A stretch of 64,000 nt of DNA. Origin: a virus. Below, piece after piece: positions 10,170 through 64,000 of this stretch (its first letter is position 1; the number at the start of each line of letters is the position of its first letter). The notes below the pieces were generated by a model. It was not told where the DNA came from. It was given only the letters and a program-made list of their open reading frames with translations, and did no database searches. The stretch covers positions 124,001-188,000 of IMG/VR virus record IMGVR_UViG_3300023174_000033. One strand, 5' to 3'. Both the position numbers and the translations under genes were made by a program.

Positions 10170-13100
10170 TTATCCTCCAGGCCCAGGTCCGCCTCCACCC
10201 GGATCCTCTGTAGCTACTTGACCCGAAGCTTTTAAGAAATCACTGTCTGAAAGTTGTGAAGTTGTTGTCAAGTCAAAAACTGCCTCACTTGACTTGCTAA
10301 TAAATTTAGAACTTATTGAAATCTCAAAATTGTCAGTGAATGAGAAATTATTATTAGACAACTCAACGAATGGAGCTCTACCCTCTTGTGGAATTCTTGG
10401 ACTAAAGTCAATTTGTGTGGGTATATATGGGGCCCTCCCAAGAATCTTTGATGGGTCAGGATTTTCACCAGCTGCTAGAAAACTATTTGTATCAAAAACA
10501 GATGCTGAAAAGTATGAGAAAAATGGTAACATATTTACCTCATTTAATGATATATTTGAAATATCAATACTAAGTGGACCACCTCTTACAGGAAAACTAT
10601 TGAAAAATGTTATATCAAGATTTGTTTTATTCATAAAATATTCTGTTGACCTAACTCTCACTTTTGGATTTGGAAGAGGTTGTCCGGGTAAATTTGTTTG
10701 CGCCACAATTTCACCATTATAAAAATGATTCATGTATTGGTGAAGATTCTTTTGAGGTAATCCAAGGTTATCAGATTGCTGATCCAAATAACCGAAAATA
10801 TCGTCCAAGAATAAACCCTGATAGAAACCATCAAGTTGTGGAGGAGTTGGAGCATAATTTACTTTTAAATTATAAGTTATGTCAACAGACAATTCATAAT
10901 ATCTATTCGGCACAGGTTTAATATTTTTATTTTGAAGTATTTGTATCCAGTTTAATGGTGAGAATGTTGGAGCAAATGTTTCCACATAATCCGAAATTGT
11001 TAGTTTCAAAATATTATCATTGGCACTATCAGTATTCGAATCATAAGAATAATTCGCAGGTAAGTTCTTTGTCCAAACAGGTTCCGGTATTGGCAATACT
11101 GTTATTTTTCCATAGGCATTATAGGGATTAAATTCTGTTGGATTGTATCTCCTTTCCCCATTTAAACCGGCTCTATTCAATTGATCTTTAAAATAACTTA
11201 CCCATTGTTGCACAGACCCGCCAGCATCATACAATCCACTAGCATTAAATTCAGACCAGTCACCATAAATCAAATTTGTTGGAGCAAGTCTCATCAAGTT
11301 CTGATAGAAATGCACACCATGTGTTAGACCAGGTGTCTTTGGAGCCGAATATGGACCAGGTCCAGTTCTACCAGTTGTCTGATTTGTCTGAATAGGTGGT
11401 AATCCAGTAAACGATGATCTCTCACCAGTGGCTGTATTTATTGATCTTGACTGTGGATAGTCGTATCCAGCATCGGTAAAAGCCCATCCCAAAACGTCCG
11501 TATCGAATTTTATATCACCATATGGCGTTATACTCTGCCACCCTGTGGTTAATTGTATTCTGTTACCCAAAGGAGCGGATGTTCCACCATAACCGACGGC
11601 ACTAAATCCCCTTGGAATCCAACGGGCAGGTCCCCCAAATCTAGCTCCCTGATTATTATTAAATGCGTTCCATCCAAAATATTCATGTCCATTATTATTC
11701 CAACCACCACCAAGGCCATTAATTTGATTCGCAACAGCATAAATAAAACTAGCTAGTGGGTACGGGTACGGAGTACCGCCAAAGTAACCGAATGGGGTGG
11801 TAACGCCAGGATTATAATAAGCACCATTATTGCTATAATCATTGAATGGGTAGCAAGCATTTTTATAATATCCCATAGGTTGATTAACCTGAAATTCTTG
11901 GACCCCACTTCCTCCGTTCCTACCTCTAGCTTTTAACCAAGTTGGATAAGTACCATTTGCGACACCAGGCGTTCCGGACCATTTCAATGCTGGTTTTCGC
12001 AAATCATTCATTCTAAACTCAATTATATCACCTGAGGTAACAACTATTTCCCTTGGTTCGTAAGTTAGTGGCTTATCCTTGTCTCCATGCCCGACCTGAT
12101 TAATATACCAAGTTTTTGGAGCGGATCCGGCATATCCGGGCGGTACGTATTCAGACCCAACCCTTTGCCACAATGTACTAAACGTAAATCCTATACTAGT
12201 AAGTGTGGTAGCTACCGATCCAAGTTGTCTGGAAAAAGTAGCATTCGAGGAAATTGGTTTAATGAAATTACCATCGTTAGCGAGTAAATTAGAAAATACT
12301 TTTCTTTTTGTACCCAAATTATAAGTTCTTTTTGTCGTGGTTAGGAAATCTCTAAATTCGGAAACACTTGATAAAACATCAAGTGTTGGATAACCTTGTA
12401 AATTTGGAGCATTGAAAACTGTTGAAGTTGTTCTTGGTTTCCAACCGCCAACATTTGGATTCACACTTGTCGCCCCCGTAACTAGGTCTACTAATGGTTT
12501 ATCTTCATATTCTTGAAAATAAGCAGCATCTGCTTTTTCCGAACCTATCATCATTGGTATGAAATCACTAACACGCAATTGTGTAGTATCCAATTTCAAA
12601 TTAACTTTTGATTGAGTTGAGTAAACAACATCAATCCAAGATAGATACCGATTTGTAATATCCTCAGCCACAGTTGATTCCCATTTCCGGTTAGGGGCTG
12701 GGTTATTCAAATCTTTAAACCTGAAGTTTTGTATTAGACCGGTGTTGTGCCTTTGATAAATTGTAGAATTAGCTTTCTTTTCAACTGATTTAAAATGACC
12801 ACCTTCAAAAGCCCCATCAATGAAGTGGGAATCAATCATCTCTGTCAACACTGGAGTTCCTTTGAATAAACCATTATTCCAAACCCCTCTGAAAACACCA
12901 TTTAGAAAAGCTCCATTGGTCCAAACATTTGTTGTTATGTATATTAAATGATTAGAAGAGTCTTTCTTTATATAGGAAATAGGTGTCAAACTTTTATAAG
13001 TAACTGTAAGAGTATTTTCTTCCAATGAATAACTTTCCACATCTAATACACCGGAAATATAAATTCTACGATCATTATTATCATAAGCTGCCAAGTTACT

Positions 13101-16100
13101 CACAGATATTTTTTGCCCAACATCCAATTTTAGTTGGTACGCTGAAAGGCTATCAACTAATTGTATTTTTATAGACCAAAGTGTATCCCTAGATGTTTTT
13201 CTTATAGCAAAAAGTATATCGTTTGCTTTTAGCAAATCATCTACCTCAAAGAATCCAAAAGAACTTGAGTTAAATCTATAACCACCATTCCACACACCAT
13301 TCTCCCAAACACCTTGTCTGAAAACTCCATTTCCAAAGACAATACTATTTTGTCTATCAAACCCAGTGGGTAAACTTAAAACCACACTTGGAGTTGCTGG
13401 AATACCGATAAATTTTTTAGTTTGATCCACACCGGAATATAAGGCATTATTAAAATCAAAATTATACTCAATTTTTCTCCTGGTGACTCTCCAACTGTAA
13501 ATTCTTAAAATACCAAAAGAAGTCTTTCTTACCCAAAATCTATTTCTATCAGGATCTGGATTGTTAAGAACCTCTGGAGTAGTAATGTAATTAAATTTTA
13601 ACCTATAGAAAGCTGGAAAGAAACTTTCTCTCGGAACTCCTTCAGCACTATAATTAGCCTTTTTACTCTTTAAATCATATGTTGAATATGAAGCACCCGC
13701 CATCCAAACTTCAAAACTAACAGTATCGGTTAGTTCTACAGAAACTTCCATCTCGGTATAATATTGGTAACCATACCCTTGATAAATATCAACACCGCCA
13801 AGAGCAAAGTAGTAAGCTCTTCTTACGTCAAATTGTCTTTGAACACCCGTAGGAAAGCTAGCGATGTCTGTTCCATTTGGTGAAATTCCAAAATTAACAG
13901 ATAAAAATCCACTTAAATTCGGAGTTACACTCGCAGAAGATCCAAAATCCCATCCTGCAGTAACTGAGACACCCTGACCATAATATTGAGATCCAACATT
14001 TATTACCACATAACGGTTTTCAGTTGGAGAATACCAAGGGAATCCCGATATACCAATTTCCCTTATCAATTCAATTGCCTGATCTCGTTTTTCATCATCA
14101 GTTCCGGCAATCGCAGTTGTCGGTAAACCAACTTCCCTACTAAATTCCCTTGGAAAACCTGCGATGTCCATATTGTAGAAATAAATACCAATTCTGCTAC
14201 CAGTAACTCCATTGAAAGGTTTTTGGGAGGTGGTCGCTATTGCAGCATTAATTTGGGATATTAATGTATCAAATTGAGCCATAGAGTATCCTTTGGCAGC
14301 GTTTATACTCGCATACGATAACCATCTTGCATAAATCTTGTGACTCGGAGAACTATTTGGTATTAAACCACTCGCTCCCCCACTCACTGGTGCACCACTT
14401 TGTACATTATCCTCGGGTATATTTATTTGACTTTCCCCTAAATATCTTTTTGGATAAGTGTTATAACCCCTTGGGCTACTATTTATAGTCCTTGAATCAG
14501 ATGGCTCTGGTATAGGAAGGTTACCGTAATCTGAAAATTTGGTATAAAGATTAACTGGATTCCTATTCTGAGTTGTTGTGTCAAATGTTATCAAATTAGG
14601 CAATCCAGTGCTCGCATCATATGTGCCGTTCCAATAAAAAGGTATATTCAAAGACTGATCCCAATCTGAGCAAGCTTTAATGCTTGTCTCAAAATTTTTA
14701 ACTATTGCACTATTTCCATACTGAACAACTGGGACATAATCCAAAGCTTCATATGTTTCAGTAAGAGGTTTCGCCGGGTCCCCTGGTACATTATGTTCAA
14801 CAATTGCATTGCCCTCAGTGAAATGCGAACCTGTGGCCCAACCTCGGATAAACTCTGCGCTCTTATTGAGATCTAAAATATAACCCAATGAATTTTCAAC
14901 ACTGCTTATTGTTAAATACGCCTGAATTGTAGTTGAAGGATTATATATCGGCCAAGTGGGATTATTTCTGTAATTATAAAATCTAAGTTTAACACCAGCC
15001 TTGCCTTTAAAATTGTAAGGCAGCCCCGTTACATAAAAAAGTCCACCAAAAGTTAATCCCTCCACTATTGTGCAGAATTGTGTTGGCGTCGTTGTGGAAG
15101 TCACTGAACCCGCTGGTATAGTAGCTATAGGTGTCCCCACACTAGGATTGTAGGTGAAATCACTACCACCTAACCAACCAAACTTTTGACTTCTAGTAAA
15201 TTCCCAAGTTGAATCATTAGCACCCGATTGTCCACTCATCGTAAAAAAATTAAAACTTTGACCAGATAACCAAAATGTTAAGGGATTTGTAGTTAGAGCA
15301 GTCCTAACGTCGGTAAATGCCAGCACTGCTGGTGAAGCATTTGTTTTTACAGCGTAGGGGAAATAAATCTCATGATATTCCGAATCCCTTAATCTCAGAG
15401 CATTTGGGCTCTCCACCCCAAAGTTAAAACTGTAAGGACTAGCACTAAATACATTTGAAACAAAAATATAAGAGGTATCATTACTTTCAGCGGTTTTAAA
15501 AGTTTGTGGATAAGATTCTCTCATGAATCTATCGGTCCTCAAGATAATATCAAATTCCCTACCACGAGCAACGCTATGTGAATATCCAACTTCGCCTGGA
15601 TTTGCTGGACCAGTAGCAACGACTAAATGATTAAATGGAGATCCATTCCAATTTCCGTTTCTCCAAGTGCCACCATCCCAAAATATATTATCAGCATTTC
15701 CATATTCCCATATGCCATTTTTCCAATAAGCTCCCGACATATATCCGTTTTTGAATAAACCATTTTGCCATTCAGCCGCGTAAAAAGATCCTGTGACAAA
15801 AACACCTCTTTCCCATTTTATTAAATTTGGTTCAAAATAAAAAGCACTCGAAGCTGTAGAATATAAATAATCCCTATCTACATATGGGTTGAAAACACCA
15901 CCATCAAATGTACCATTGCTAAATGTTCCCTTACAAAAAAGTGAATTTTTAAATGTTGAATTTTCATAATCATATAGACCATCAATCCAAACAACATTTT
16001 GAAAATTAACCCTACTTTTTCTATCAGTTGTTTTTATAGCCCTCTTGATTTTTGACACAACTTTTTCATTGGTCACGTATAAAGATTTTTTCTCTGTAAC

Positions 16101-19100
16101 GACCCCATCAACCCACAATCCATAAAAAAGTCCTCGAATGTCGTCACCATTAGCCAAATTGAATGAATTCGGGTCTCTAAATGGAGCAAAACTTAAATAA
16201 ATATCTTTTTCTATAGTGTTATCTTCATTTGAAGGTATGCCAGATGGATAATTTGGAACAGATCCCATGAAATTACCACCAGAGAATACCCCATTACGCC
16301 AAAGTCTACCTCGGAATATCCCATCATTGAATTCACCAGAACCCCATATCGAATTATTTATCAATTCTCCTGTACCAAATTCACCACCATTGAAAACTCC
16401 AGACTCCCAAGAAAAAACTGTTGTGTTTTGAGGTCTAGTTACAAATGTTTGTTCCTCTGATCCATATATTGATATAAATTTACCACTATTGAATATTCCA
16501 TTTTTCCATTGGGCATAATTTCCAAATACACTTCCATAGAAAGTTCCATTATACCATATTGACTGCATGTTTGAGCTAGCACTAGCAGATGTAAATTCAC
16601 CAGCGGACATTTGACCATTATACCAGAAAACTACACCATTACCACCAACTAAACCATTCTGAACAACTCCTCCAAAAAACTTTGATTGAGTTCTGCCCAA
16701 GAATTCCGGAATAAATCCAAATCCGTTAACTGCATAAATTGTTGGTAGCCAATTAATACCACCTACGGGAAATGGGGAATACCAACCATATCCAAAAGTT
16801 GTTTCTTCATATTTTATTGATTGGTCGCCAAAAATTCCAGATTCAAAGTCACCTGCAAACCATTTAGACCTCCAAAATTTACCATTACTGAATGTACCAT
16901 CTACCCAATATGAATTATAAAATTCACCAGAAAGGAATTTACCATCATTCCAGATTCTTCTGATTGGTTTTTTAGCAATATCAAAGTAATTTATAGCTGA
17001 AATATAAGGATTTACACTTCCCTCATTTGTCTCATCATTAGTCTGATAAACTTGTTCTGTTCCAAAAATTGGAGTAATATAATACCAAGTTAAACTATTG
17101 GAATCGGAAAATTTCCCATTAAGGAAAGTTCCATTCAACCAATATCCACTTTGGAATTCTCCGTTTGAAAAGGTTGCACCATTCCAATAACAAGAGTGGA
17201 AATATCCACCAGTATTGGTGATATTTGTTATATGGGATTGATATATAAATCCATTCTCAACCAAGGAATTATTCCTAGCAAAAACTACATTTACAACTTT
17301 TGGTAAGGATGTTGGGTCTATATCAAAAGTAGATGGCTTTACATATGGGACACGGTTTGTTAGTTTTGTATTCTTGAAATAAACACGTTTGAATACCCCA
17401 CTATAAACTGTGGAGTTTTCAATTACAACTCTGTGCATAGATGCGTAATTTACTGTTTCCGAACCAATTATGCTGTAGGTCCCCACGTTAGTCAAGAATG
17501 ATGACATGGGTGAATTTGGAGATGATACATTTTCAGATATGGATACCAATGGACTAGTACCCCAAGTTGGTCTACCCAAGTTATAATAAGGTAGTCCACC
17601 CAGTAAATTCTGAACCCCATTAACATACTGTCCCTCTAACTCCACTCTTTGGGTAGGGGATTGATAGGTAATTGAGTTTATGTGGATCACTTCCCCCAAC
17701 TGTGGTAATTTTATTGCCGGATTAAACCAACTCGCATTCCCTCTTAATTGGTTGAATTTTGTAAATATATTAAAATTTGATGATAGTGGGGAAACTCCAG
17801 GCTGCTGCCTAGACATTACTAATTTAGCTCCAAACTTTACACCACCCGTAACTTCACTAGCAATAGTGGACCTATTGTAAATAACAAGTTCAAAATCCTC
17901 AATCAAAGAACCACTAACCCAATTTGAATTAACAAAAACCCCACTGTGGAAATTTGAATTTTTCAAAAGAACATTTTTGAAAATCTTGTCAACTATATTT
18001 GTTGGAAGGAGATTATCCATTTTGGGCTTCAATGGCATAGTAATCGTTGTTTGGTCCCTATCAAAAGTGTAAACATCTTTATTTAGCTGCACATCCCTAT
18101 ACCAACCGAGAGCTCTAGTTTCTATGTCAATTGAACAATAATTATAATATTTTGATGTTTCAGATGCCAGAACTTTTTGATTCGCCCCACCTATTGTATA
18201 TTGCCTCGTAACATAAGAATCAGGTGTTAATTGTGGGTTATGTGGCACTAAACATTGATAATATTCCCACTTTTCTGTCTGTGGGTTGTAAATTCTAACA
18301 ACGTCGTTTATTTGGTAACTATTTGCTCCATATATAGGTGTTGTTTGATTAATCAAAAATGATTGAATATCTGTACTATATTCTCCTCTGAATTGTCCAC
18401 GGGAAAGAGAATCAAATGGGCCAGTAGTATTGGAGAAAACTCTTTCATAGGCTTCCGCATTTAAGGGGGTATAACCATCTGTAGCCAATATGGGATCTTG
18501 TAAAGTAGGTACTGAAATATATTTAAAAATATGAAGTGTCTGTCCGTAACCATATATGCTTACAGGTCCACCAATTTGGTCAACGGGCACAGCAATAATA
18601 ACTTCCTCGAAAGCTGGCAGTTCAATTAATCCTTGCCCGCCACGTATTGGAGGAGCGACTTGTTGTGGAATTTCATATAAATAATAAAACCAAGTTCCAG
18701 CAGCAACTTCCGCTGGTGTTGGTGTCCAAGACGAGTCATAAGCAGGAGATAACCTGTTTGCTTGTGAACTAAATCTAGCGGTCACATCAGTCCACCAAGT
18801 AATACCATTAATTTGTGTGGTGTTCGGTACTTCCTTTGTTTGAAATTGGGCACTAGTTGACCTACTTATGTAAAATCTGTTCCTATTTGACCTCTTATCT
18901 CTAACCGAAACTGCTTGTTTTGAACCAACCTTTGATGTAAATTCAGCATCCCAATATAAGTTCAAAAGATACTTTGTTTCATATGGTAGAATAATTCGGT
19001 TATCAGCGTCAAGAGTTCCAAGAAAGAATTCCTTATTGACTCTCTCAATATAAAAAGTATCATTTTTCTCCATTCTGAAAAAATCTTCATCAGAAATGAA

Positions 19101-20837
19101 AAGTTTTAATATTCCAACCATCTGTGAATTGTCAGCAAAATTACCCAATTGGGGATCCCAAGAATTTAATTCGGCCCCTAGTATTCTTATACCACTGTCT
19201 GAATTAAATTCACCACTGTCAAACACACTATTAAAAATTTGACTATTAACAGCTTTAGTTCTTTTCAAATTTGAATTTTCAACTATCGAATCAGCCAGTG
19301 TTGAACTTGATAAAATAACTGATTCCAAATCACAAAATTTGAATTTTGAAAAATTAGCCGTAATATCGTAATTTTGAGTTGTTTTAGAATAGTAATTCGG
19401 CACAGTCGGAATACTACTGCCTTTGATATTACAATTTTCAAAAGTTGACTGTATAAAAACACCCTTTATAATTTTAGAATCTATCACCAAATTATATCCG
19501 AGTCCAGAATTGTTTGTGGTGTCAATAACTTGTGAAACATATGGTATGGAGAATTGGTCATATAATAGACTAGCCCTCACAACCCCATCACCAACTTTTG
19601 TGTTTGTGTTCATGAGTCCATTATTCCAATCGGAGTTTATCATAACACCATAATTCCAGGTCGCATTCTGCCACTTATTAGATTTTAGATAAGTGCCAAA
19701 TAATCCACCATTATGTTCACCAACAAATTTACCATATTTGAAATATGTAGCAGTTATAATAGGAATTTTATACTGTCGGTCTATAACCCACTTTGAGGTA
19801 GTTTTGTCAAATTTATAAATTTGTCTTTCTTGAAAATTTGTTCCCTCCCAAGTAAAATCCTCACCCAGAATGAATAATCTTTTATTTCCTATTTCATTTG
19901 TGGGATTTGATAAAGTATCCATCAAACGAATTTGATTGGTCCTGATTTGAGTACTAACGTCAATCCAGTTACCAGTAACTGGTGATGATAAACTATCTCT
20001 AACAAAGAAAGCACCACCAGGTATGGATCCAGGTGGTGTAAAAGCACCAGTGTGGTTATCTAAAAAATCAACGTCCGTTGTATTTTTGGATTGTGCAAAT
20101 TTATTGAAAATTATGTTACCAGTCCAAGTTCTTAAAACATTACTAACAACCTTTCCTTGAAAAAGGGAAACTAAATCACCAGGAATTGTAGTGTCCGTAA
20201 CATATGTTTTGAATGTACTTATGTAATTAAATGGCTCCGAGTAGCTTGAAACGTAGTTAGTGGCGGTATAATCTATATTATGTACAAATATGAGATCGTT
20301 TATATCAAGTGGTGACTCATATGGATTCACTCCAGTATAGTCAACATCAAGAACAACTTTACAATCTTCAATAAGAAGAACTTTGTATCCATCACTACCC
20401 TTTGAATATTTATCATTTAATATTTTATCATGAGAATCATAATTGCCATTAATAATATATACCCTTTCACCTACTTTGAAATTTGTTGAAATTTCAGAAT
20501 AGAAAGCAGTTTTCCTAACACCACCGACTTCATATGGCTCAACATAGTTGAGTAACTTTGAGGTGAATTTATTTTTATTTGATGTGGGACTAGTATATTT
20601 TACCGATCCCTCGTTTTTTGAAATGTTCGGACGTAAAACATTTGGTCTAGAACCAATTGGTATAGTTGGAACAGCAATTGATACTGTTGCTATAATCTCT
20701 TGTTGTGGCTGATCAGCCTGAACAATTGGAATATTTACATTCTCTTCAACTGGTTTCGGCCCCTCAGGAGTTCCCTTTTTTAAAAAAGTATTATTGTTCT
20801 GTGAATTGTTATTAAAAATTACTTTATTTAACGGCAT
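10170..20837 (-). CDS. Giant repeat-rich virion protein, 3555 aa
   Basis: One uninterrupted reading frame of 10.7 kb. It has an N-terminal region beginning MPLNKVIFNNNS with a Pro-rich linker, then long stretches of short repeats with an aromatic-x-[ND]-G-x-[FW] core (for example WVDGTFSNGKFW, WQNGLFKNGYMSG, WENGVWNGGY), strongest at about residues 350-560, 1180-1750 and 2480-2680. Such regular Gly/aromatic repeats suggest a beta-solenoid like MORN or pentapeptide proteins. The C-terminus ends in a Gly/Pro tail (GGGGPGPGG). It is most likely a tail-fibre, baseplate or long virion-surface protein; the exact position is unknown. It is preceded by an AGGAG four nt from the ATG and an AATATATAA box. 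Confidence 0.85.
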   Translation of the reverse strand: MPLNKVIFNNNSQNNNTFLKKGTPEGPKPVEENVNIPIVQADQPQQEIIATVSIAVPTIPIGSRPNVLRPNISKNEGSVKYTSPTSNKNKFTSKLLNYVEPYEVGGVRKTAFYSEISTNFKVGERVYIINGNYDSHDKILNDKYSKGSDGYKVLLIEDCKVVLDVDYTGVNPYESPLDINDLIFVHNIDYTATNYVSSYSEPFNYISTFKTYVTDTTIPGDLVSLFQGKVVSNVLRTWTGNIIFNKFAQSKNTTDVDFLDNHTGAFTPPGSIPGGAFFVRDSLSSPVTGNWIDVSTQIRTNQIRLMDTLSNPTNEIGNKRLFILGEDFTWEGTNFQERQIYKFDKTTSKWVIDRQYKIPIITATYFKYGKFVGEHNGGLFGTYLKSNKWQNATWNYGVMINSDWNNGLMNTNTKVGDGVVRASLLYDQFSIPYVSQVIDTTNNSGLGYNLVIDSKIIKGVFIQSTFENCNIKGSSIPTVPNYYSKTTQNYDITANFSKFKFCDLESVILSSSTLADSIVENSNLKRTKAVNSQIFNSVFDSGEFNSDSGIRILGAELNSWDPQLGNFADNSQMVGILKLFISDEDFFRMEKNDTFYIERVNKEFFLGTLDADNRIILPYETKYLLNLYWDAEFTSKVGSKQAVSVRDKRSNRNRFYISRSTSAQFQTKEVPNTTQINGITWWTDVTARFSSQANRLSPAYDSSWTPTPAEVAAGTWFYYLYEIPQQVAPPIRGGQGLIELPAFEEVIIAVPVDQIGGPVSIYGYGQTLHIFKYISVPTLQDPILATDGYTPLNAEAYERVFSNTTGPFDSLSRGQFRGEYSTDIQSFLINQTTPIYGANSYQINDVVRIYNPQTEKWEYYQCLVPHNPQLTPDSYVTRQYTIGGANQKVLASETSKYYNYCSIDIETRALGWYRDVQLNKDVYTFDRDQTTITMPLKPKMDNLLPTNIVDKIFKNVLLKNSNFHSGVFVNSNWVSGSLIEDFELVIYNRSTIASEVTGGVKFGAKLVMSRQQPGVSPLSSNFNIFTKFNQLRGNASWFNPAIKLPQLGEVIHINSITYQSPTQRVELEGQYVNGVQNLLGGLPYYNLGRPTWGTSPLVSISENVSSPNSPMSSFLTNVGTYSIIGSETVNYASMHRVVIENSTVYSGVFKRVYFKNTKLTNRVPYVKPSTFDIDPTSLPKVVNVVFARNNSLVENGFIYQSHITNITNTGGYFHSCYWNGATFSNGEFQSGYWLNGTFLNGKFSDSNSLTWYYITPIFGTEQVYQTNDETNEGSVNPYISAINYFDIAKKPIRRIWNDGKFLSGEFYNSYWVDGTFSNGKFWRSKWFAGDFESGIFGDQSIKYEETTFGYGWYSPFPVGGINWLPTIYAVNGFGFIPEFLGRTQSKFFGGVVQNGLVGGNGVVFWYNGQMSAGEFTSASASSNMQSIWYNGTFYGSVFGNYAQWKNGIFNSGKFISIYGSEEQTFVTRPQNTTVFSWESGVFNGGEFGTGELINNSIWGSGEFNDGIFRGRLWRNGVFSGGNFMGSVPNYPSGIPSNEDNTIEKDIYLSFAPFRDPNSFNLANGDDIRGLFYGLWVDGVVTEKKSLYVTNEKVVSKIKRAIKTTDRKSRVNFQNVVWIDGLYDYENSTFKNSLFCKGTFSNGTFDGGVFNPYVDRDYLYSTASSAFYFEPNLIKWERGVFVTGSFYAAEWQNGLFKNGYMSGAYWKNGIWEYGNADNIFWDGGTWRNGNWNGSPFNHLVVATGPANPGEVGYSHSVARGREFDIILRTDRFMRESYPQTFKTAESNDTSYIFVSNVFSASPYSFNFGVESPNALRLRDSEYHEIYFPYAVKTNASPAVLAFTDVRTALTTNPLTFWLSGQSFNFFTMSGQSGANDSTWEFTRSQKFGWLGGSDFTYNPSVGTPIATIPAGSVTSTTTPTQFCTIVEGLTFGGLFYVTGLPYNFKGKAGVKLRFYNYRNNPTWPIYNPSTTIQAYLTISSVENSLGYILDLNKSAEFIRGWATGSHFTEGNAIVEHNVPGDPAKPLTETYEALDYVPVVQYGNSAIVKNFETSIKACSDWDQSLNIPFYWNGTYDASTGLPNLITFDTTTQNRNPVNLYTKFSDYGNLPIPEPSDSRTINSSPRGYNTYPKRYLGESQINIPEDNVQSGAPVSGGASGLIPNSSPSHKIYARWLSYASINAAKGYSMAQFDTLISQINAAIATTSQKPFNGVTGSRIGIYFYNMDIAGFPREFSREVGLPTTAIAGTDDEKRDQAIELIREIGISGFPWYSPTENRYVVINVGSQYYGQGVSVTAGWDFGSSASVTPNLSGFLSVNFGISPNGTDIASFPTGVQRQFDVRRAYYFALGGVDIYQGYGYQYYTEMEVSVELTDTVSFEVWMAGASYSTYDLKSKKANYSAEGVPRESFFPAFYRLKFNYITTPEVLNNPDPDRNRFWVRKTSFGILRIYSWRVTRRKIEYNFDFNNALYSGVDQTKKFIGIPATPSVVLSLPTGFDRQNSIVFGNGVFRQGVWENGVWNGGYRFNSSSFGFFEVDDLLKANDILFAIRKTSRDTLWSIKIQLVDSLSAYQLKLDVGQKISVSNLAAYDNNDRRIYISGVLDVESYSLEENTLTVTYKSLTPISYIKKDSSNHLIYITTNVWTNGAFLNGVFRGVWNNGLFKGTPVLTEMIDSHFIDGAFEGGHFKSVEKKANSTIYQRHNTGLIQNFRFKDLNNPAPNRKWESTVAEDITNRYLSWIDVVYSTQSKVNLKLDTTQLRVSDFIPMMIGSEKADAAYFQEYEDKPLVDLVTGATSVNPNVGGWKPRTTSTVFNAPNLQGYPTLDVLSSVSEFRDFLTTTKRTYNLGTKRKVFSNLLANDGNFIKPISSNATFSRQLGSVATTLTSIGFTFSTLWQRVGSEYVPPGYAGSAPKTWYINQVGHGDKDKPLTYEPREIVVTSGDIIEFRMNDLRKPALKWSGTPGVANGTYPTWLKARGRNGGSGVQEFQVNQPMGYYKNACYPFNDYSNNGAYYNPGVTTPFGYFGGTPYPYPLASFIYAVANQINGLGGGWNNNGHEYFGWNAFNNNQGARFGGPARWIPRGFSAVGYGGTSAPLGNRIQLTTGWQSITPYGDIKFDTDVLGWAFTDAGYDYPQSRSINTATGERSSFTGLPPIQTNQTTGRTGPGPYSAPKTPGLTHGVHFYQNLMRLAPTNLIYGDWSEFNASGLYDAGGSVQQWVSYFKDQLNRAGLNGERRYNPTEFNPYNAYGKITVLPIPEPVWTKNLPANYSYDSNTDSANDNILKLTISDYVETFAPTFSPLNWIQILQNKNIKPVPNRYYELSVDITYNLKVNYAPTPPQLDGFYQGLFLDDIFGYLDQQSDNLGLPQKNLHQYMNHFYNGEIVAQTNLPGQPLPNPKVRVRSTEYFMNKTNLDITFFNSFPVRGGPLSIDISNISLNEVNMLPFFSYFSASVFDTNSFLAAGENPDPSKILGRAPYIPTQIDFSPRIPQEGRAPFVELSNNNFSFTDNFEISISSKFISKSSEAVFDLTTTSQLSDSDFLKASGQVATEDPGGGGPGPGG

Positions 20838-20892: not shown

Positions 20893-21459
20893 TTAATAAT
20901 TATCTTTAACCCAATTTATCAAATCCAATAAATTATCCATATTTTTGGGATATTTATCAACTAAACCTTCAAGAAAGATTAATCTATGTTTTTTATAGAC
21001 CCCCGTATCAATATCCGAATATTCCTTTCTTAAATTTTTCTCCCAATCAAGTAGTTCATTTATTCCCCTTTGACATATGTTCATATCATAGGAAATAAAC
21101 TTTTCAGAAAGTGGGGTAGATGCTACATGGTCTTTAGTGTCTAGTATCATCTGCCTTATCTCAACTACATCAATATCATGTTTCTCTGAACAAAATTTTA
21201 AAAAAAGATTAGCTGACTTTTCCTCATTATTATCAGATCCAACTTCATATACAATATCATGAAATAAAGCAGTTATTATTAACTTTTTTCTTTGGTTTGA
21301 ATCTATCACACCATCACCATAATCTTCATTAATTTGAGATATCAAATCAGTTAAATGATTCAAATCATGATAAAATCTATGGGATTCATTCCATTTATCA
21401 AGTAATGTCTTAACATCACATTTTACTCCAAATTCATTTAATATGCCTTGTAGTTCCAT
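20893..21459 (-). CDS. HD-superfamily metal-dependent phosphohydrolase
   Basis: 188 residues resembling the COG4339 group. It has RFYHDLNHL at 28-36 (first His31), LFHDIVYEVG at 66-75 (the HD pair, His67-Asp68) and a later TKDH near 115, the ordered His/Asp set that binds divalent metal. HD enzymes hydrolyse phosphate esters of nucleotides or related molecules; the substrate is not known. It begins 3 nt after the M16 peptidase stop on the minus strand, so the genes at 23083, 22569 and 21459 form one operon. Confidence 0.8.
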   Translation of the reverse strand: MELQGILNEFGVKCDVKTLLDKWNESHRFYHDLNHLTDLISQINEDYGDGVIDSNQRKKLIITALFHDIVYEVGSDNNEEKSANLFLKFCSEKHDIDVVEIRQMILDTKDHVASTPLSEKFISYDMNICQRGINELLDWEKNLRKEYSDIDTGVYKKHRLIFLEGLVDKYPKNMDNLLDLINWVKDNY

Positions 21460-21462
21460 AGT

Positions 21463-22569
21463 TTACTCAAATTCTTTATTATCCAAAGATACATAAAAAT
21501 TATCAAAATCATAAAATTCTTCATAAATATCTCTTAACTTATCATAATTTATAGTTTTAATAATTTCTTTAATTGACCAACCTTCTGGGTTAATCCAATT
21601 GTTTACATTTTCGTATCTCATTATTTTATCTTTCTTCAGTCTTAATAAATAATGATTCTTAATTATTTCAAATCTTTTCTTCGTTAGAAACTTATCAGGA
21701 TTACTCAAAATATTCTTCACAGTTTTGATTATTTTCTGCGCATTCTGTTCTGTGGTCTGTGTTGTTATACTCGTCAATCCTTGATTGTTGTATCTACTTT
21801 GACCGCATCTAATATAATAGACCAATCCCTGTTTTTCTCTACACTCTTGATACAGAGGAGAATCAAGCCCCATAGATAACATCGCATTTATAAAATTGAC
21901 CCAGTTGAAATTTTCTTCAATGAGTGGTGAAGTCATAATCAGAGAAACTTTTTTACCAAACTTTTCCCTTGGCTCCAAAATAACATCATCATAGGGCCCG
22001 AAAACAGATTTTGTTTCAATATTTTGAGACGCGAAACTATCAGTATATTTGAAAGGTGAACTTTTTGAAACATTTATAATTTTACTTGGATACTTAAATT
22101 GTTTTTCAAAAAAATTCAAACAGTCCATAAATTTCATTGATTCTAGATCCTCCCTCAACCCTATCGCGTCATAATCTTTAAATAATTTCCTTGACAAATT
22201 CAATGCGTGTGACTCGGTTTGGTCGGAAAAATAATCCCCATATTCCTGTAGAACAATTTCACGTTCCATTTCAAACTGCTCTTTCGTTATATTGAATTGA
22301 CTCATAAGATCAACTAACTCATATCTCCTTCTACTTAACATTTCATCAAGACCCGTGAAATAAAAAACAATTTCATTTTTTGAGGTGTAAGCATTCCAAG
22401 AAATTGCTTCTCTCTCAAAAATCTCTCTTAAATTTTCAAAATTTTTACACATTAAATGTTCCATCAAATGTGATATACCAAAAATTCCCCTTTCCTCTAT
22501 GTTAGTCGATCCATAGTAAACAAGGTAAAATCCCGATAAGTCCGTTTCACTCTTTAAGTTTATAAGCAT
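21463..22569 (-). CDS. M16-family zinc peptidase (pitrilysin-like)
   Basis: 368 residues from ATG 22569; a TTG nine nt upstream overlaps the previous gene and is less likely. The inverted zinc motif HLMEH is at 34-38 (HxxEH), with the downstream ligand in EREIVLQEYGDY about 75 residues later. The rest follows the M16 alpha/beta fold, including an RxxGLVYYI-like segment (REKQGLVYYI) typical of the C-terminal half. At 368 residues it is a single M16 pair (two domains), about the length of processing-protease subunits. It cleaves peptides or small proteins; the target is unknown. Phage M16 proteins are uncommon. Its start follows the stop of the 22571-23083 gene by 1 nt. Confidence 0.86.
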   Translation of the reverse strand: MLINLKSETDLSGFYLVYYGSTNIEERGIFGISHLMEHLMCKNFENLREIFEREAISWNAYTSKNEIVFYFTGLDEMLSRRRYELVDLMSQFNITKEQFEMEREIVLQEYGDYFSDQTESHALNLSRKLFKDYDAIGLREDLESMKFMDCLNFFEKQFKYPSKIINVSKSSPFKYTDSFASQNIETKSVFGPYDDVILEPREKFGKKVSLIMTSPLIEENFNWVNFINAMLSMGLDSPLYQECREKQGLVYYIRCGQSRYNNQGLTSITTQTTEQNAQKIIKTVKNILSNPDKFLTKKRFEIIKNHYLLRLKKDKIMRYENVNNWINPEGWSIKEIIKTINYDKLRDIYEEFYDFDNFYVSLDNKEFE

Positions 22570-22570
22570 T

Positions 22571-23083
22571 TTAGTCAAAAGTAATTATGAAATAATTGTT
22601 TCTTATTTCGGTATTTTTTGTATAAAAAATAGATATATTTTCCAAAATTGAAATTATATCTTCGTTTGAAAAAGTATCTTCTGTAGATTCAATTGATTTT
22701 TTCTCATTAACCCCACCCATAAAACTTGATAATGTCTTTATCTCACGATCACGCCTTGTTGATTCCTTCAAATTATCAACTTCGGTGAATATACCAAAAT
22801 TGATAACATCAACAAATTCTTGTATGGGCACATATAAGGAACTGTTTTCTAACTTTATTTGTTTTTTCAATCTTTCCTTAATGCTGGAAAATATTTCCTT
22901 ACTTAAAATATCATTTGATTGAAACATTTTTTCAACTAATATATTGTCTTTGAAATCATTAGCAACTTTTTCCAAATAAACTTCTCTTGACAAATTATTT
23001 GTTTTAAGAATTTTTGTAAGTCTCCCCTCTTTTAATAAGTAGGAATCTATAAATTTAATTTTTTTATTATCAAACGTAATCAT
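22571..23083 (-). CDS. Hypothetical protein, 170 aa
   Basis: Not recognised. Charged, mostly helical sequence beginning MITFDNKKIKFIDSYLL, with a Lys/Glu-rich middle (SIKERLKKQIKLENSS) and a short hydrophobic end (NYFIITFD). It is the first gene of an operon with the M16 peptidase and HD hydrolase, so a role linked to the peptidase is possible (substrate or accessory) but unsupported by motif. An AATATATAA box lies 31 nt upstream of its ATG. Confidence 0.65.
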   Translation of the reverse strand: MITFDNKKIKFIDSYLLKEGRLTKILKTNNLSREVYLEKVANDFKDNILVEKMFQSNDILSKEIFSSIKERLKKQIKLENSSLYVPIQEFVDVINFGIFTEVDNLKESTRRDREIKTLSSFMGGVNEKKSIESTEDTFSNEDIISILENISIFYTKNTEIRNNYFIITFD

Positions 23084-39972: not shown

Positions 39973-40821
39973 ATGTTTAACACACTTACTTACCATGCTC
40001 TCGTACAAAAGATGCGAGACTTTTTTTTGCAAAAAGGATTCTATGAAGTCCCCACGCAATCAAGACTGTCAATACTAGCAGCTTGTGAAAATCCTCACTC
40101 AATAACCACCTACAATTACCAAGGACTGGTTTGGCCACTTCCTCAAACGGGGCAAATGTGGTTAGAGTATGAATTACTCAAAAATCCAGAATGGCCAGGA
40201 TGTTTCTGTATTTCTACATCTTATAGACAAGAGAAAGATCCAATTCCTGGAAGACACGAACTAATTTTCCCAATGTTTGAATTTGAGTCTAAAGGAGGCA
40301 TTGAGGAAATGAAAAAACTTGAATCGGAACTACTTGAACATCTAGGATTCTCAAAACCTGTTGAAGTAAAGTATGACGATGTTTGTGAGGAGTATGGTGG
40401 AGTCCAAATCCTTGAGAACGAACACGAACAAAAAATGTGGAATGAAAAGGGTTCTGTAGTTTCTCTACAATATTTTCCAAGAAGAACAAACCCATTCTGG
40501 AATATGAAGAATAAAGATGGGCAAATTTTCAATAAAATTGATGTTATTCTCTATGGTCAAGAAACTATTGGTTCTGCTGAAAGAAGTTGTGACATTGAAA
40601 AAATGAGAGAAATGTTCTATACTATTGAAGATGGAAAATATTCAGATAAACTTTTTGAACTATTCGGTAAAGAAAGAGTTGAAAATGAATTAGAAGAATT
40701 TTTCAAACATGATTTCTTTCCAAGATTTGGAGGAGGAATTGGAATGACTAGATTAGCAAGGGCTTACGAATTGTTACAAAAAGAAAAGGTCACCACTCAA
40801 ATAGAAGAAAATGTTTATTGA
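39973..40821 (+). CDS. Class II synthetase-like protein (AspRS/AsnRS core or asparagine synthetase-related)
   Basis: 282 residues from ATG 39973. It has the class II catalytic core without an anticodon domain: motif 2 around YRQEKDPIPGR and FPMFEFE (about 84-106) and motif 3 GGGIGMTRLARAYEL near the end (about 255-270). The closest recall is the aspartyl/asparaginyl-tRNA synthetase group and its truncated relative, the asparagine synthetase related to AsnRS. Lacking the N-terminal OB anticodon-binding domain, it probably makes an aminoacyl-adenylate used for asparagine synthesis or protein modification, not tRNA charging. A hairpin lies in its leader. It overlaps the thymidine kinase start by 11 nt. 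Confidence 0.74.
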   Translation: MFNTLTYHALVQKMRDFFLQKGFYEVPTQSRLSILAACENPHSITTYNYQGLVWPLPQTGQMWLEYELLKNPEWPGCFCISTSYRQEKDPIPGRHELIFPMFEFESKGGIEEMKKLESELLEHLGFSKPVEVKYDDVCEEYGGVQILENEHEQKMWNEKGSVVSLQYFPRRTNPFWNMKNKDGQIFNKIDVILYGQETIGSAERSCDIEKMREMFYTIEDGKYSDKLFELFGKERVENELEEFFKHDFFPRFGGGIGMTRLARAYELLQKEKVTTQIEENVY

Positions 40822-43649: not shown

Positions 43650-43681
43650 TTTGGCAATCCAAGATATTTGTAGTAATTTTG
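43650..43681 (+). promoter_or_regulatory. Bacteroidota-type promoter for the peptidase gene
   Basis: TTTG at 43650-43653, 20-nt spacer, TAATTTTG at 43674-43681. In-frame ATGs follow at 43685 and 43712. Confidence 0.65.
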
Positions 43682-43711
43682 TATATGGTAAATTATAACC
43701 AAAATACAAAT

Positions 43712-45638: not shown

Positions 45639-45768
45639 TTAAAGTAAAATAAAGTCCAAAAAATATTATAGAGTATATGTATCATGATCTTGCATGTTTT
45701 GCGTTTTTTTTCACCTCCAAAACTTACAAATCCAAGAACATATAATAATAAAACAAAGTGTGTACACT

Positions 45769-59648: not shown

Positions 59649-62600
59649 ATGTGGAAAAAAAATTCAGATACTGGTAAATGGGTCTTCACTACTGACTCAA
59701 TAACAAAAGATGTTTATGAATTTTATAAACAAGAACTCAAATCGGTAAGACTTTATTCAAAATGTTTGAGTGGGTCAACTTACTTAAAAATAAATGATTT
59801 TGAGAATCTATATCCGGAATTGCAAAACGAAAGAATTGGATTCTATATCGGCACACAAAGTGTGCCTGTTCGTGGACCCCAAATAAGATTAAATGATATT
59901 ACTAGAAGAGAATTTTATGATAAGTATCTGAAGGAAGATGCTTTCACTCTCAAAAATTTATTCACACCTGAAAGATTATTAAGTGATCAAGGTACAAATT
60001 TTAAATACGTAGATGTAGCGACTACCGAGTCAATAACATTAACACAAATACAGAATTTAACCATTGATGGAATTGTTCTTAAAAACGGAGATAGGGTATT
60101 GGTTAAGGATCAAATATCAGTTGTATCAATTTCTCCGACTACAGACATTGATAATTATTTTAGGAACGTCATAACAGTTTCTAATTATTATTTTCAAAGT
60201 GAAGATACGAATAAAAATTATTATTATTACAACTCTGAAAACGGCGTTTACAAATATGATGGGTCACTTTTGATCCGTGAAAAGGATCTTTATGATTATG
60301 ATTCAGCTTACAAATACGCTGCATATGTTAGGAGAGGTAATTTGAATGGTGGTAAAGAATTTCATTTACAAAGACAAAAGTTTGGATATTTTCCGACCGA
60401 TGATTATAATGCTGAATTTTCTGAAAAGAAAAATTGGGTTTTAAGACACAGAGTTGATTATAACAATATCTATGATGTGAATATTTATGATGTTACAAAT
60501 CATGCTACACAGTCAATATATGATGTTGTAAGTTCCAAAACTTACTCAATTCCACAAAGAACAATTAGTGTTGGTGAATTTGGTGTAATTTTTGCTAACC
60601 AAGAAAGACTTTCCTCAAATGCTACTTATAGTATAACAAATGTAATACCTAGCAAATACAAAGTAAATTTATTTTCAATTGCTAATTGTTCAAAGCATTA
60701 TTGGATTTGTGGGGACGAGGGTCATATTTTGAAAATGAATAAGATTGATTTCTCAATAGAAAAAGTTAAAATAGATGAAGAACTACCTTTTATGTCAATT
60801 GATTTTTACACAGATCAATTTGGTATGGCTGTTGGAAAATTTAATAATATTTATTTTACAAGAGATTTTGGATCACAGTGGTTCAAATTAGAATTTCAAG
60901 AATTTGAAGAGTATTCATATAACAGAGTAATTCATTTTGATGAAAACACAACTTATGTTGCTGGAGAGGCGGGTATTTTTATTGAATTTTTATACACGGA
61001 GGGAAATTGGACGGCTTACAATAGAGCAGTGGTTAAAGATTTGACCGATGATGACGAATATTTATTAGTTGATGATATCACTGATTTAAAGAGATCTAAA
61101 TGGACAACTTTTAATGCCTTTACATTTTCACAAGATCAATCTTCCACATTACAAGGTAGATTGGTTTATGAAAATTCTCTTTTGGATAATTACAGAGTGA
61201 TGGAGATTTCTATAAGTTCAGACCAACTTATCCCATCAAATGCGTTTTATACAACTGCAGCCGCCAAACTTTTTATAGGTGTTTCTGTTAGTAATACAGA
61301 ATATATGAATAGTGGTGGGACGAGAGGATTCCTCAGGAACAATTCATCTTGGGGACAGGCGGCTTTACCAACTCTAAAAACTCAAGTTGATCTTTGGAAG
61401 AATATTTCATTCTCCCCAACAACAGATTTTAGTTTCACATTTAGTTTACCATTAGATGATTATGGTAATTTGGTAAATTCAACATACTTTGTTGATGTGG
61501 ATGTAAGACACAATTGGGATGTTACGACAAATGTAGTTCAGGGTAGTTATAATTCAACTATCACAAAATATAAATTCCAAACATACAATAACGATTTCCT
61601 TTTGATGTCTGGTAATAGTGGGGTGGCTGTTTGTTACGACATTAATAATTCATTTCGTAATTTAGATAATAATTTCATATTTTTATCTTTCACTCAAACT
61701 ACAACAGATATTAAGACAATTGAAAGACATAGAAGTGATATTTATGTTGGTGCTGATAGGGTATATAAATTTCCAGTTACTGATTTGGGAACTTACTCAA
61801 ATTCAACTATTAATGAGGCAAACATTACTTTAAGACCTCTTGAAAATAATTATGTTAATAGACTAGTTGCTGCAACCAATTCCTTGTTTGTCGTTGGAAA
61901 TGGTGGTCTTAATAACTACATTAACTTTTTGGATGTAGTAAATCCGACATTTTCGGTACCACTTGACCCATCGTTTAATGGTAGAATTAAATCAAAATTT
62001 TTGATGCTTGACTATGATGTGGCATCAAAGGTTAATTTCTTCACTGATGAGGGCGAGTATCGTCTTCCACAAATTGGTACATTTTCTTCTCAAGCTGCTT
62101 TTACATCTGTTGCTGGAACACAGTTATTTATAGGATCAATTGCTGGTCAAAGAAGTTGGGTGAATTATTCAATGGACTCAACAAAGACTTTTAGGTATTA
62201 CAGTATAATGAATGATGCCAATGCGGTTAGATTTAATGGGACATTCTCATACAGAACCACATCAGATCCGGTTGCGATTCCTGGTAATAGGATTGGTAGG
62301 ACACAAAGTTTTTTTGGACCATCTACCGCACAGTCCTTGGCCCCAAGTGTTTATTCTACAACTCAATCAAAATACTTTCATCCAGATGCTGCTCAAGGTA
62401 ATACTTGGAGACCCGCAACTGGAGTTGCTTATATGAGTGGTTTTCCTGGTGGGGCCTCTGCTGAAGAAACATATATAATGTTTTACGATGAAATTGGTAT
62501 TGTGGTTAGAAAGTTTACATCACTTCCCTCTTGTAATACCAACAACAGAACAGAAGTTGGTGATGTTATACAAATAAGTTCTAAAGTAATCGACACTACC

Positions 62601-64000
62601 TTCGTTGTTAACAGGATGGAGTGGTTTTCTGGGAACTTTGCAAACGCGGGCGCTTTAACTCAATATTTTGGTAGACCCGCTAATTTTCCAACCGTTGGTG
62701 GTAATCTAATTTTTGAATTTCAATATTTTTATAATAATCTAAACTCATCTATTACTGCTGAATTAACGAATAGTAGTGCTAATTTAACATATAGAAACTT
62801 AAACAATTATAAAACAATAACAGAATTATCCTCTAATATATCAAAACACCCAATAGGAGAGGCGTATGGATTGAGTTTTTCTCCAATATCCACTAGTGAG
62901 CCTTTCATTTTTGGCAAATTCAATGATAAGACGGCTTATTATAATTTACAGGCTCAAGTTGGTTTTGTAAATGCTGGTGTGAATAATGTCTCAAAGCCGA
63001 TGGCTTACAAAGATACTTTTCTTGATTTCGGTTTTTCCCCAACTTATAATTTAAGTGATTACCTTAACAAAATCAATCCAAGTGTGTTTACCGCGACCAA
63101 AAGATTTGGTGTGTTAGCCACATTTTCTGTAACCGGTAGAGGCACTACTAATTGGACAAGAGATAAAGTTCATTTCAGCACAGCTCCGCTTTCAACCCAA
63201 ACACAGAGTAACCTTCTTTGGTTTGGTGAATATTTAAGAAATAGTTGGGAATCTTTATTAGATCATACCTTCTTGGATATAGTAGCGGTTGGTAACACAT
63301 CAACTTTCACCCTTACACAGTATTTGGTAACCGAAAAATATGAACAAAAGGTTTCTTTTAGTGATGGGGTCGGTGGGTTTATATCTGGAACAGCATATGT
63401 TTTACAATTAAATAAACAATTACCTATTACTCAAGGTATAAATTTATATCATATTTCTACAAGAAATTCTTTAGCAAATATAAGTACGGACTTACAATTA
63501 CTTAATAATATTCACCGGTCAGAAGTTGACAAAGTTGTACAAACTGGTGTTTCCTTTAAGAATCTACAATCTCCAAGAATTGGAAAGTTCCCAACTGAAT
63601 CTTATATGAAAGCATTAGTTTCTGATTATGATATACAGGAAAACATAAGTGCTATTATGTATACCGATAGAAATTTTGACATAGCTTTGAATGTAGTTAA
63701 TGTTGAAAAAGAATTGGTATTCAATGCTGATAATATACAAAGTGCCGTAATATCCGGATTTTCTGGGGGAAAGATGAGATTGAAACCAAAGATAGATTCC
63801 GCGACACAGAGTTTCAGTAGGGGAGATTTGATAAAAGTGGAATTTGGTGAAGTTGATAAAGTTTCTAGATTTAGTGGATATCAAACTGTTATCGCTACCG
63901 ATAATCAATACATCTATACTTCTAAAGATTACGCCACAACAGATCCTGCTTTTTCTACCGCAACTATATCTGTAATTAAAAGAGATCCTTTCTTTAATTA
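59649..64000 (+). CDS. Giant putative tail-fibre protein, 3' end outside window
   Basis: An uninterrupted frame from ATG 59649 to the window edge, at least 1450 codons, with no stop. It starts MWKKNSDTGKWVFTTDS. At about residues 140-160 it has NLTIDGIVLKNGDRVLVKDQ, the 'xIDGxxLxxGDRVLVKDQ' tail-fibre module. At about 350-460 there are repeated WICGDEGHILKMN-, GMAVGKFNNIYFTRD- and YVAGEAGIFIEF-type stretches like BNR/beta-propeller blades. Later sequence is Asn/Thr/Ser-rich beta structure. I read it as a fibre or tail-surface protein with a possible propeller. It follows a 72-residue gene and an AATATATAA box. Confidence 0.8.
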   Translation, partial: MWKKNSDTGKWVFTTDSITKDVYEFYKQELKSVRLYSKCLSGSTYLKINDFENLYPELQNERIGFYIGTQSVPVRGPQIRLNDITRREFYDKYLKEDAFTLKNLFTPERLLSDQGTNFKYVDVATTESITLTQIQNLTIDGIVLKNGDRVLVKDQISVVSISPTTDIDNYFRNVITVSNYYFQSEDTNKNYYYYNSENGVYKYDGSLLIREKDLYDYDSAYKYAAYVRRGNLNGGKEFHLQRQKFGYFPTDDYNAEFSEKKNWVLRHRVDYNNIYDVNIYDVTNHATQSIYDVVSSKTYSIPQRTISVGEFGVIFANQERLSSNATYSITNVIPSKYKVNLFSIANCSKHYWICGDEGHILKMNKIDFSIEKVKIDEELPFMSIDFYTDQFGMAVGKFNNIYFTRDFGSQWFKLEFQEFEEYSYNRVIHFDENTTYVAGEAGIFIEFLYTEGNWTAYNRAVVKDLTDDDEYLLVDDITDLKRSKWTTFNAFTFSQDQSSTLQGRLVYENSLLDNYRVMEISISSDQLIPSNAFYTTAAAKLFIGVSVSNTEYMNSGGTRGFLRNNSSWGQAALPTLKTQVDLWKNISFSPTTDFSFTFSLPLDDYGNLVNSTYFVDVDVRHNWDVTTNVVQGSYNSTITKYKFQTYNNDFLLMSGNSGVAVCYDINNSFRNLDNNFIFLSFTQTTTDIKTIERHRSDIYVGADRVYKFPVTDLGTYSNSTINEANITLRPLENNYVNRLVAATNSLFVVGNGGLNNYINFLDVVNPTFSVPLDPSFNGRIKSKFLMLDYDVASKVNFFTDEGEYRLPQIGTFSSQAAFTSVAGTQLFIGSIAGQRSWVNYSMDSTKTFRYYSIMNDANAVRFNGTFSYRTTSDPVAIPGNRIGRTQSFFGPSTAQSLAPSVYSTTQSKYFHPDAAQGNTWRPATGVAYMSGFPGGASAEETYIMFYDEIGIVVRKFTSLPSCNTNNRTEVGDVIQISSKVIDTTFVVNRMEWFSGNFANAGALTQYFGRPANFPTVGGNLIFEFQYFYNNLNSSITAELTNSSANLTYRNLNNYKTITELSSNISKHPIGEAYGLSFSPISTSEPFIFGKFNDKTAYYNLQAQVGFVNAGVNNVSKPMAYKDTFLDFGFSPTYNLSDYLNKINPSVFTATKRFGVLATFSVTGRGTTNWTRDKVHFSTAPLSTQTQSNLLWFGEYLRNSWESLLDHTFLDIVAVGNTSTFTLTQYLVTEKYEQKVSFSDGVGGFISGTAYVLQLNKQLPITQGINLYHISTRNSLANISTDLQLLNNIHRSEVDKVVQTGVSFKNLQSPRIGKFPTESYMKALVSDYDIQENISAIMYTDRNFDIALNVVNVEKELVFNADNIQSAVISGFSGGKMRLKPKIDSATQSFSRGDLIKVEFGEVDKVSRFSGYQTVIATDNQYIYTSKDYATTDPAFSTATISVIKRDPFFN

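Follow-up and report, generated by a model that had tools for sequence, protein, structure and literature searches.

The window analysed here covers 64,000 nucleotides (positions 124001-188000) of a 464,605-base virus record. It contains a giant gene, P0001, at positions 10170..20837. The open reading frame runs from 20837 to 10170 on the minus strand and encodes 3555 amino acids from an ATG, with no internal stop. The uninterrupted 10.7 kb gene described in a first-pass annotation of this DNA is real, and its strand, left unstated there, is the minus strand. The C-terminus, described there as Gly/Pro-only, is Gly/Pro-rich and reads DPGGGGPGPGG. This tail (residues 3546-3555, 10173..10202) is not conserved; among the other ORFs of 100 aa or more in the 44 loci examined, none carries one like it. 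Genes around P0001 include nuclease-like, HD-domain, M16 and S1-domain genes. Two neighbours on the same strand are kept in related loci, an HD-domain phosphohydrolase (20893..21459) and an M16 (insulinase-type) peptidase with a Pfam match above the cut-off (21463..22578). The M16 peptidase gene is likewise present in each of the five huge phage records discussed below and in four of the eight related records searched.

Along P0001, several regions can be told apart, all encoded on the minus strand. Residues 92-189 (20271..20564) form an N-terminal domain that is also present in short relatives of the protein (hhalign 97.6%, E 3.7e-12). In the predicted structure of one such relative, L029, this domain resembles the FCCH half-domain of the ubiquitin-activating enzyme E1 (model residues 19-127 against Uba1 FCCH: Z 7.7, rmsd 2.7 over 77 residues, at moderate model confidence); no Pfam match to it was seen when P0001 and its relatives were scanned. 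Its alignment with the middle of the module profile A5 was weak (hhalign, 43%), and we therefore do not claim that the domain is repeated within P0001. Profile A5 itself gave one match among solved structures, at 0.16. Ser/Gly pentad segments follow at residues 379-545 (19203..19703), recognised as pentad runs and by a weak Pentapeptide_4 match at 490-543, and counting of pentad runs revealed an isolated run of five at residues 958-978 (17904..17966). The main aromatic-Gly block, a predicted solenoid interrupted by loops, comprises residues 1190-1740 (15618..17270) and was delimited by motif, period and AlphaFold2 modelling. Behind it lies a spacer (residues 1745-2440, 13518..15605) that, by locus comparison, spans the site of the gene boundary in split homologues; it matched no PDB sequence up to an E-value of 1. 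A second conserved module occupies residues 2495-2690 (12768..13355), where pentad runs at 2501-2516 and 2639-2682 flank a non-repeat domain. Close to the C-terminus, residues 3377-3518 (10284..10709) match the end of gene B in record LR745206 with 26% identity.

Searches with P0001 returned no PHROG family up to an E-value of 1, tail-fibre families included. Nor did any Pfam family exceed its cut-off, and a phmmer search of solved structures yielded a single chance-level match (0.33). Tandem Repeats Finder detected no array inside the gene, so the repeat is present at the protein level only. There it is pronounced. The motif [FWY]x[ND]Gx[FW] occurs 20 times in P0001, compared with a mean of 0.46 and a maximum of 3 in 300 residue shuffles, and its strict form WxNGxF occurs seven times (mean 0.03 in the shuffles). 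Runs of Gly-pentads comprise 62 pentads (mean 2.7, maximum 15 in 200 shuffles). The many aromatic-x-[ND]-G-x-[FW] units reported at first sight are thus borne out by the counts, and the blocks, put at 'at least three' there, number four, at residues 1223-1316, 1428-1513, 1639-1725 and 2501-2672. Pentads of a Ser type stand in the same register at residues ~379-409, 446-476, 509-544 and 958-978. By hhalign, the Ser-type segment aligned with the solenoid of the short forms (91.9%), while the comparison with the main block was negative (1.7%).

The repeat unit is pentapeptide-like, aromatic-x-[ND]-G-x, and is referred to here as the WNG repeat. It is organised in a super-repeat of 15 residues, W-x-N-G-x-F-x-N-G-x-F-x-x-S-x, which is clearest in the short relatives. 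Within residues 1190-1740 of P0001, aromatic residues recur at lags 5, 10, 20 and 15 with 2.26, 1.82, 1.72 and 1.70 times the expected frequency (95th percentile of the shuffled maximum, 1.55), and glycine recurs at lags 5, 15 and 30 with 2.36, 2.29 and 1.91 times the expectation. Successive W..G spacings equal 15 in 87 of 249 cases in 14 short relatives, compared with 62 for a spacing of 5 and 7 for a spacing of 20. For 27 other giant-type ORFs the spacing of 15 accounts for 87 of 436 cases, and for P0001 it accounts for 5 of 29. The repeat-period analysis proposed for this gene yields a period of 5 within 15.

Pentapeptide repeats carry a small residue at position i-2 and a bulky one at position i. 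Expressed in these terms, the WNG repeat has Gly at i-2 and Trp or Phe at i, where the pentapeptide family consensus is Ala and Leu/Phe. A profile of the short forms matched the solved structures of EfsQnr (7.7e-8), 6fls (7.5e-5) and SV2C (7e-4), and a profile of residues 85-690 with their relatives matched SV2A (2.9e-4), 6fls (4.7e-4) and MfpA (0.0039). For the main-block profile alone, the best pentapeptide structure scored a non-significant 0.084, and an unrelated demethylase domain ranked ahead of it at 0.024; the link between the main block and the short-form solenoid comes from hhalign (99.7%, E 1.2e-26). Against the Pfam pentapeptide models, with a cut-off of 38, P0001 scored 14.7 bits (Pentapeptide_4) and the relatives L024, L029, L048 and L038 scored 36.6, 36.4, 33.6 and 19.8. 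Since these scores stay below the cut-off while the profiles reveal kinship, we classify the WNG repeat, on sequence grounds, as a relative and variant of the pentapeptide repeats (PF00805 clan) and not as a member. With pentapeptide proteins such as HetL, EfsQnr, QnrB1, MfpA and the SV2 luminal domain it shares the five-residue period, the small residue at i-2, the bulky residue at i and, by prediction, the right-handed beta-helix. It differs in using Trp/Phe with Gly where those proteins have Leu/Phe with Ala, in its 15-residue super-period, in a coil with probably three sides rather than four, in its inserted domains and in its occurrence in a giant phage protein.

The first-pass annotation had compared the repeats with both pentapeptide and MORN repeats. 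A MORN-type protein would also be Gly/aromatic-rich, and one relative, a 203-aa protein of phage PspYZU05 (L044:9917-10528), is annotated as a phosphatidylinositol 4-phosphate 5-kinase 5-like protein, a name that presumably stems from MORN similarity. MORN repeats have a period of about 23 and are not known to form beta-solenoids. The WNG repeat has a period of 5 and 15 and is predicted to form a solenoid, and Pfam scans of P0001 (E up to 1), of four proteins (0.1) and of seven proteins (0.01) returned no MORN family, which makes this reading highly improbable. The PspYZU05 protein, from a member of the Straboviridae, consists largely of 22 consecutive W..G pentads. All 21 of its successive spacings equal 5 and it gave a weak fold match (1.4e-2); unlike the giant protein, its pentads are nearly all of the Trp type and it lacks the 15-residue super-repeat.

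We then modelled two proteins with AlphaFold2: residues 1090-1745 of P0001 together with 14 homologues, and the short relative L029, of which 557 residues were used along with 7 relatives. The P0001 model reached a mean pLDDT of 69.6 and a pTM of 0.70, with 191 residues at 90 or above and 205 below 50, the latter mostly in loops between the repeat blocks. For L029 the mean pLDDT was 76.5, with ten-residue means of 87-98 over residues 241-430. In both models the aromatic-Gly blocks are predicted, at high confidence within the blocks, to fold as a right-handed beta-solenoid, in line with what had been expected from regular repeats of this kind. In the L029 model the DSSP pattern EEE--EEE--EE--- recurs every 15 residues. 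Foldseek against the PDB found no match at an E-value of 0.001 for either model; against BFVD, the P0001 model had two matches, both from uncultured marine phage (9.3e-8 and 1.3e-5). With VIA-align, the P0001 model aligned to Ag43b (Z 13.2, rmsd 2.8 over 225 residues) and QnrB1 (Z 8.5, rmsd 3.9 over 162 residues). Left-handed helices superposed on both models with an rmsd of 10.6-11.8 and most right-handed ones with 2.5-4.6, the right-handed 4kh3 being an exception at 11.0 and 11.7. Beta-helical tailspikes and autotransporter passengers such as Ag43b share the right-handed beta-helix with the models; they have no pentad repeat, and the Foldseek E-values are not significant. Their coils are longer and less regular.

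The number of sides per coil was addressed with the L029 model. It superposed on HetL (Z 13.4, rmsd 2.5, 163 aligned residues), with 169 model residues spanning 232 residues of the HetL chain; the corresponding numbers are 153 against 202 for 4yc5 and 131 against 165 for 2bm5. At 20 residues per coil in these pentapeptide structures, the coils of the model would comprise 14.6, 15.1 and 15.9 residues, respectively. Two alignments diverged and correspond to about 18 residues per coil (2j8k, 167 against 181; 6zt5, 167 against 183), whereas the remaining pentapeptide alignments of L029 are unusable for coil length because they cross a loop after residue 431. In the short forms, Trp residues recur 136, 83 and 59 times at lags 15, 30 and 45, compared with 51, 45 and 34 times at lags 20, 25 and 40. 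Among outward residues of nine short proteins, phase-corrected identity was highest at lag 15 (190 against 143.3 expected, ratio 1.33) and barely above expectation at lag 20 (94 against 88.2, ratio 1.07), with 112 against 91.3 at lag 30 and 70 against 56.9 at lag 35; the excess at lag 15 could stem from recent duplication. A four-sided pentapeptide solenoid of 20 residues per coil, with an aromatic core and the same role in the phage, would account for the repeat if the 15-residue period were the trace of an ancestral three-pentad duplication. Such a period is sterically possible in a four-sided coil, the relatives' profiles match four-sided pentapeptide proteins, and 2j8k and 6zt5 point in the same direction. 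The Trp spacings, the 15-residue DSSP recurrence, the coil lengths derived from HetL, 4yc5 and 2bm5 and the identity peak at lag 15 all argue against it, and we consider the four-sided coil possible but rather doubtful. Periodicity together with alignment of the predicted structure favours a three-sided coil of 15 residues over a four-sided one of 20. If it is three-sided, the coil represents a new geometry for pentapeptide-type repeats. In keeping with the idea that period and register might reveal a fold not described for tail proteins, the period of 5 within 15 may reflect a coil geometry that is new to them.

A three-sided coil containing Phe has been described for the Knotted Solenoid, a short knotted dimer from Brevundimonas that is structurally nearest to pentapeptide repeat proteins, according to the paper describing it (PMC13123833). 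The predicted WNG coil would share its three sides and its Phe. Neither the Knotted Solenoid nor the spruce budworm antifreeze protein appears in the VIA lists of the two models, an absence that excludes nothing. In literature on three-sided or triangular pentapeptide solenoids, on phage tail or virion proteins with pentapeptide or MORN repeats and on huge-phage structural proteins, no description of the WNG repeat was recognised in titles and abstract openings.

Of the 656 residues modelled for P0001 (1090-1745), 392 have a pLDDT of at least 70. Beta-solenoids rise 0.48 nm per coil. At 15 residues per coil, the modelled solenoid would thus comprise about 26 coils and measure about 12 nm, which suggests a spine for inserted domains rather than an exceptionally long rod. 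The length of P0001 is also ordinary for its family, because the two halves of the split homologue L017 add up to 3602 aa (1796 + 1806). The exceptionally long fibre or surface rod envisaged in the first-pass annotation is not supported by these estimates, in which the solenoid makes up only part of the protein.

In a tblastn search of 50,697 phage records, the first half of P0001 matched four records, LR756502 (642 kb), LR745206 (634 kb) and LR756501 and LR756503 (both 735 kb), and the second half matched two of these, LR756502 and LR745206. Queries with the short relatives added LR756504 (636 kb) and PspYZU05. Homologous pentad proteins therefore occur in all five huge phage records (LR756501-LR756504 and LR745206), as a 689-aa short form in LR756501 and within a 2912-aa ORF with 16 motifs in LR756504. 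Al-Shayeb et al. (PMC7162821) list 634, 636, 642 and 735 kb for the four largest genomes of their study and place the five above 634 kb, with predicted Bacteroidetes hosts, in the Mahaphage clade. Gene order around the giant gene is common to the window, LR756502 and LR745206; the tie of the 464,605-base record to the large Mahaphage members consists of the homologues and this shared gene order only. A related-locus search with the plain N-terminal 1800 aa retrieved no relative, whereas an alignment-based search (A1) retrieved 35 IMG/VR loci from 122 pattern matches. One short-form-like relative (L048:4582-5760) lies on a contig of 25% GC assigned to a Lokiarchaeota MAG.

Two adjacent genes encode the protein in LR756502 and LR745206 (1324 + 1048 and 1591 + 987 aa, respectively). 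Among 17 loci placed on a tree, seven have the fused form (the window, L005, L006, L009, L013, L016 and L018) and ten the split form (L002, L003, L007, L008, L011, L014, L017, L019, L020 and L022). In L007, L008 and L017 the halves are separated by one or two further ORFs. The tree excluded L010, L012, L015 and L021, which are copies with the same coordinates and scores, the truncated L026, short forms and distant loci. A single change separates fused from split loci (support 95/96, recovered in 94% of 200 bootstrap trees; none of 500 shuffles was as low). The tree is unrooted, so that fusion and fission are not told apart, and L018, L009 and the window form long branches. By the usual reasoning on gene fusions, the two halves are likely to be in contact in the particle. 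The split and fused forms thereby single out a pair of proteins with a probable contact in the virion. Median identity of P0001 to 16 relatives is 31.8%. Of 15 neighbours compared, two antisense ORFs having been left out, eight show 52-65% identity and seven 27-38%, the latter in three to six loci each. P0001 falls into the half of its neighbourhood that diverges faster; since seven of the 15 are about as divergent, divergence does not set it apart.

A second giant protein with C-terminal W-rich pentads starts within the window on the plus strand (59649..63998) and ends beyond it, with 1921 aa and 14 motifs in the full record. The main-block profile found only P0001 in its own record and missed this second protein. 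A homologue was present in all five related records searched. Judged from the coordinates, it is separated from the giant gene by ~4, 15, 18, 27 and 31 kb in the relatives and by 39 kb here. Among the next large genes downstream in the window's record, one encodes 1292 aa with many tail-fibre PHROG matches and another 757 aa with PHROG matches to virion-structural and tail-fibre families; intervening proteins of 901 and 380 aa have no PHROG match. A YCF48-like Pfam match of the second pentad protein was discarded: it was below the cut-off for the window fragment (6e-5) and absent from the full protein.

About 133 kb from P0001, the record encodes two tandem tail-sheath genes with clear PHROG matches (L047:1815-6029 and L047:6183-10325; record 269815-278325), which indicates a contractile tail. 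Each protein has ~1,400 aa, and the sheath PHROG covers only the C-terminal third or so; the Pfam sheath model scored 20.7 bits for one of them against a cut-off of 31.4. The prohead protease model PF03420 matched nowhere, controls included. Neighbours were partly scanned in three short-form loci. The 371-aa relative in L034 directly follows a tail-fibre-like gene, while the neighbours seen in L024 and L038 were of SSB-like, transposase or homing-endonuclease type, with no tail gene among them. In bacteria, a protein (L049:2914-6777) with an apparent signal sequence combines four CARDB matches with a block of WNG pentads; the preceding ORF comprises 969 aa with 15 motifs and is open at the locus end.

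We lean, with some reserve, towards P0001 being a giant structural protein of a contractile-tailed huge phage, an adsorption fibre or a fibre-bearing baseplate component. Its location in the virion and its binding to the host are suggested by context: the sheath genes, the second pentad protein near tail-fibre-like genes, the setting of the L034 relative and the apparent signal sequence of the bacterial CARDB protein speak for a role in adsorption, while the ~133 kb to the sheath genes, the lack of an adjoining recognised tail gene and the neighbours seen in L024 and L038 count against a role in the tail. The protein might instead act inside the cell, as a scaffold or as a DNA-mimicking inhibitor like Qnr and MfpA, to which its relatives show sequence kinship; nuclease-like, HD, M16 and S1-domain neighbours would suit such a function. 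Against this, the protein has no strong negative charge (-9 in the main solenoid of 551 residues, -1 in the N-terminal pentad region of 137 residues), a protein of 3555 aa with many beta-rich inserts fits poorly, the same pentads occur behind an apparent signal sequence and the second pentad protein adjoins tail-fibre genes. An intracellular role appears unlikely to us.

In the proposed adsorption protein, the spine would be a stiff right-handed beta-solenoid of aromatic-Gly pentads, three of which (15 residues) probably make one coil with Trp and Phe stacked inside. The Gly two residues ahead of each aromatic would leave space for this stack, and the variable beta-rich domains inserted into and after the spine would contact the host surface. 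Sister phages would build the same spine from two neighbouring genes, whose products probably touch in the particle. We tentatively propose, at somewhat below even confidence, a distinct class of beta-solenoid that is right-handed and three-sided, with 15 residues per coil and a stacked Trp/Phe core allowed by Gly at i-2, and that serves two or more giant adsorption proteins of the largest phages as a common spine. One of these proteins would be fused in one clade and encoded by two partner genes in the other. Little is known about host binding by the largest phages, and family libraries recognise nothing in P0001. With a spine motif that can be recognised, candidate adsorption proteins can be picked out in huge phages that have not been cultured.

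Further observations concern other genes of the record. Two ORFs, window 45694-47184 and L046:16909-18102, match residues 115-510 and 510-762 of the 764 of one PHROG ATP-dependent protease. They lie ~48 kb apart on opposite strands; perhaps the ATPase and protease parts of one enzyme are encoded separately here. The ORFs at 43679-44824 and 56185-57360 of the window are paralogues with 54% identity over ~240 residues, and the second of them matches a peptidase PHROG. Within an otherwise unmatched 24-kb stretch, 158 bases of the window (40129-40286) stand out by being 79% identical, as DNA, to the gene for tRNA ligase in the cyanophages P-SSM2 and P-SSM5.
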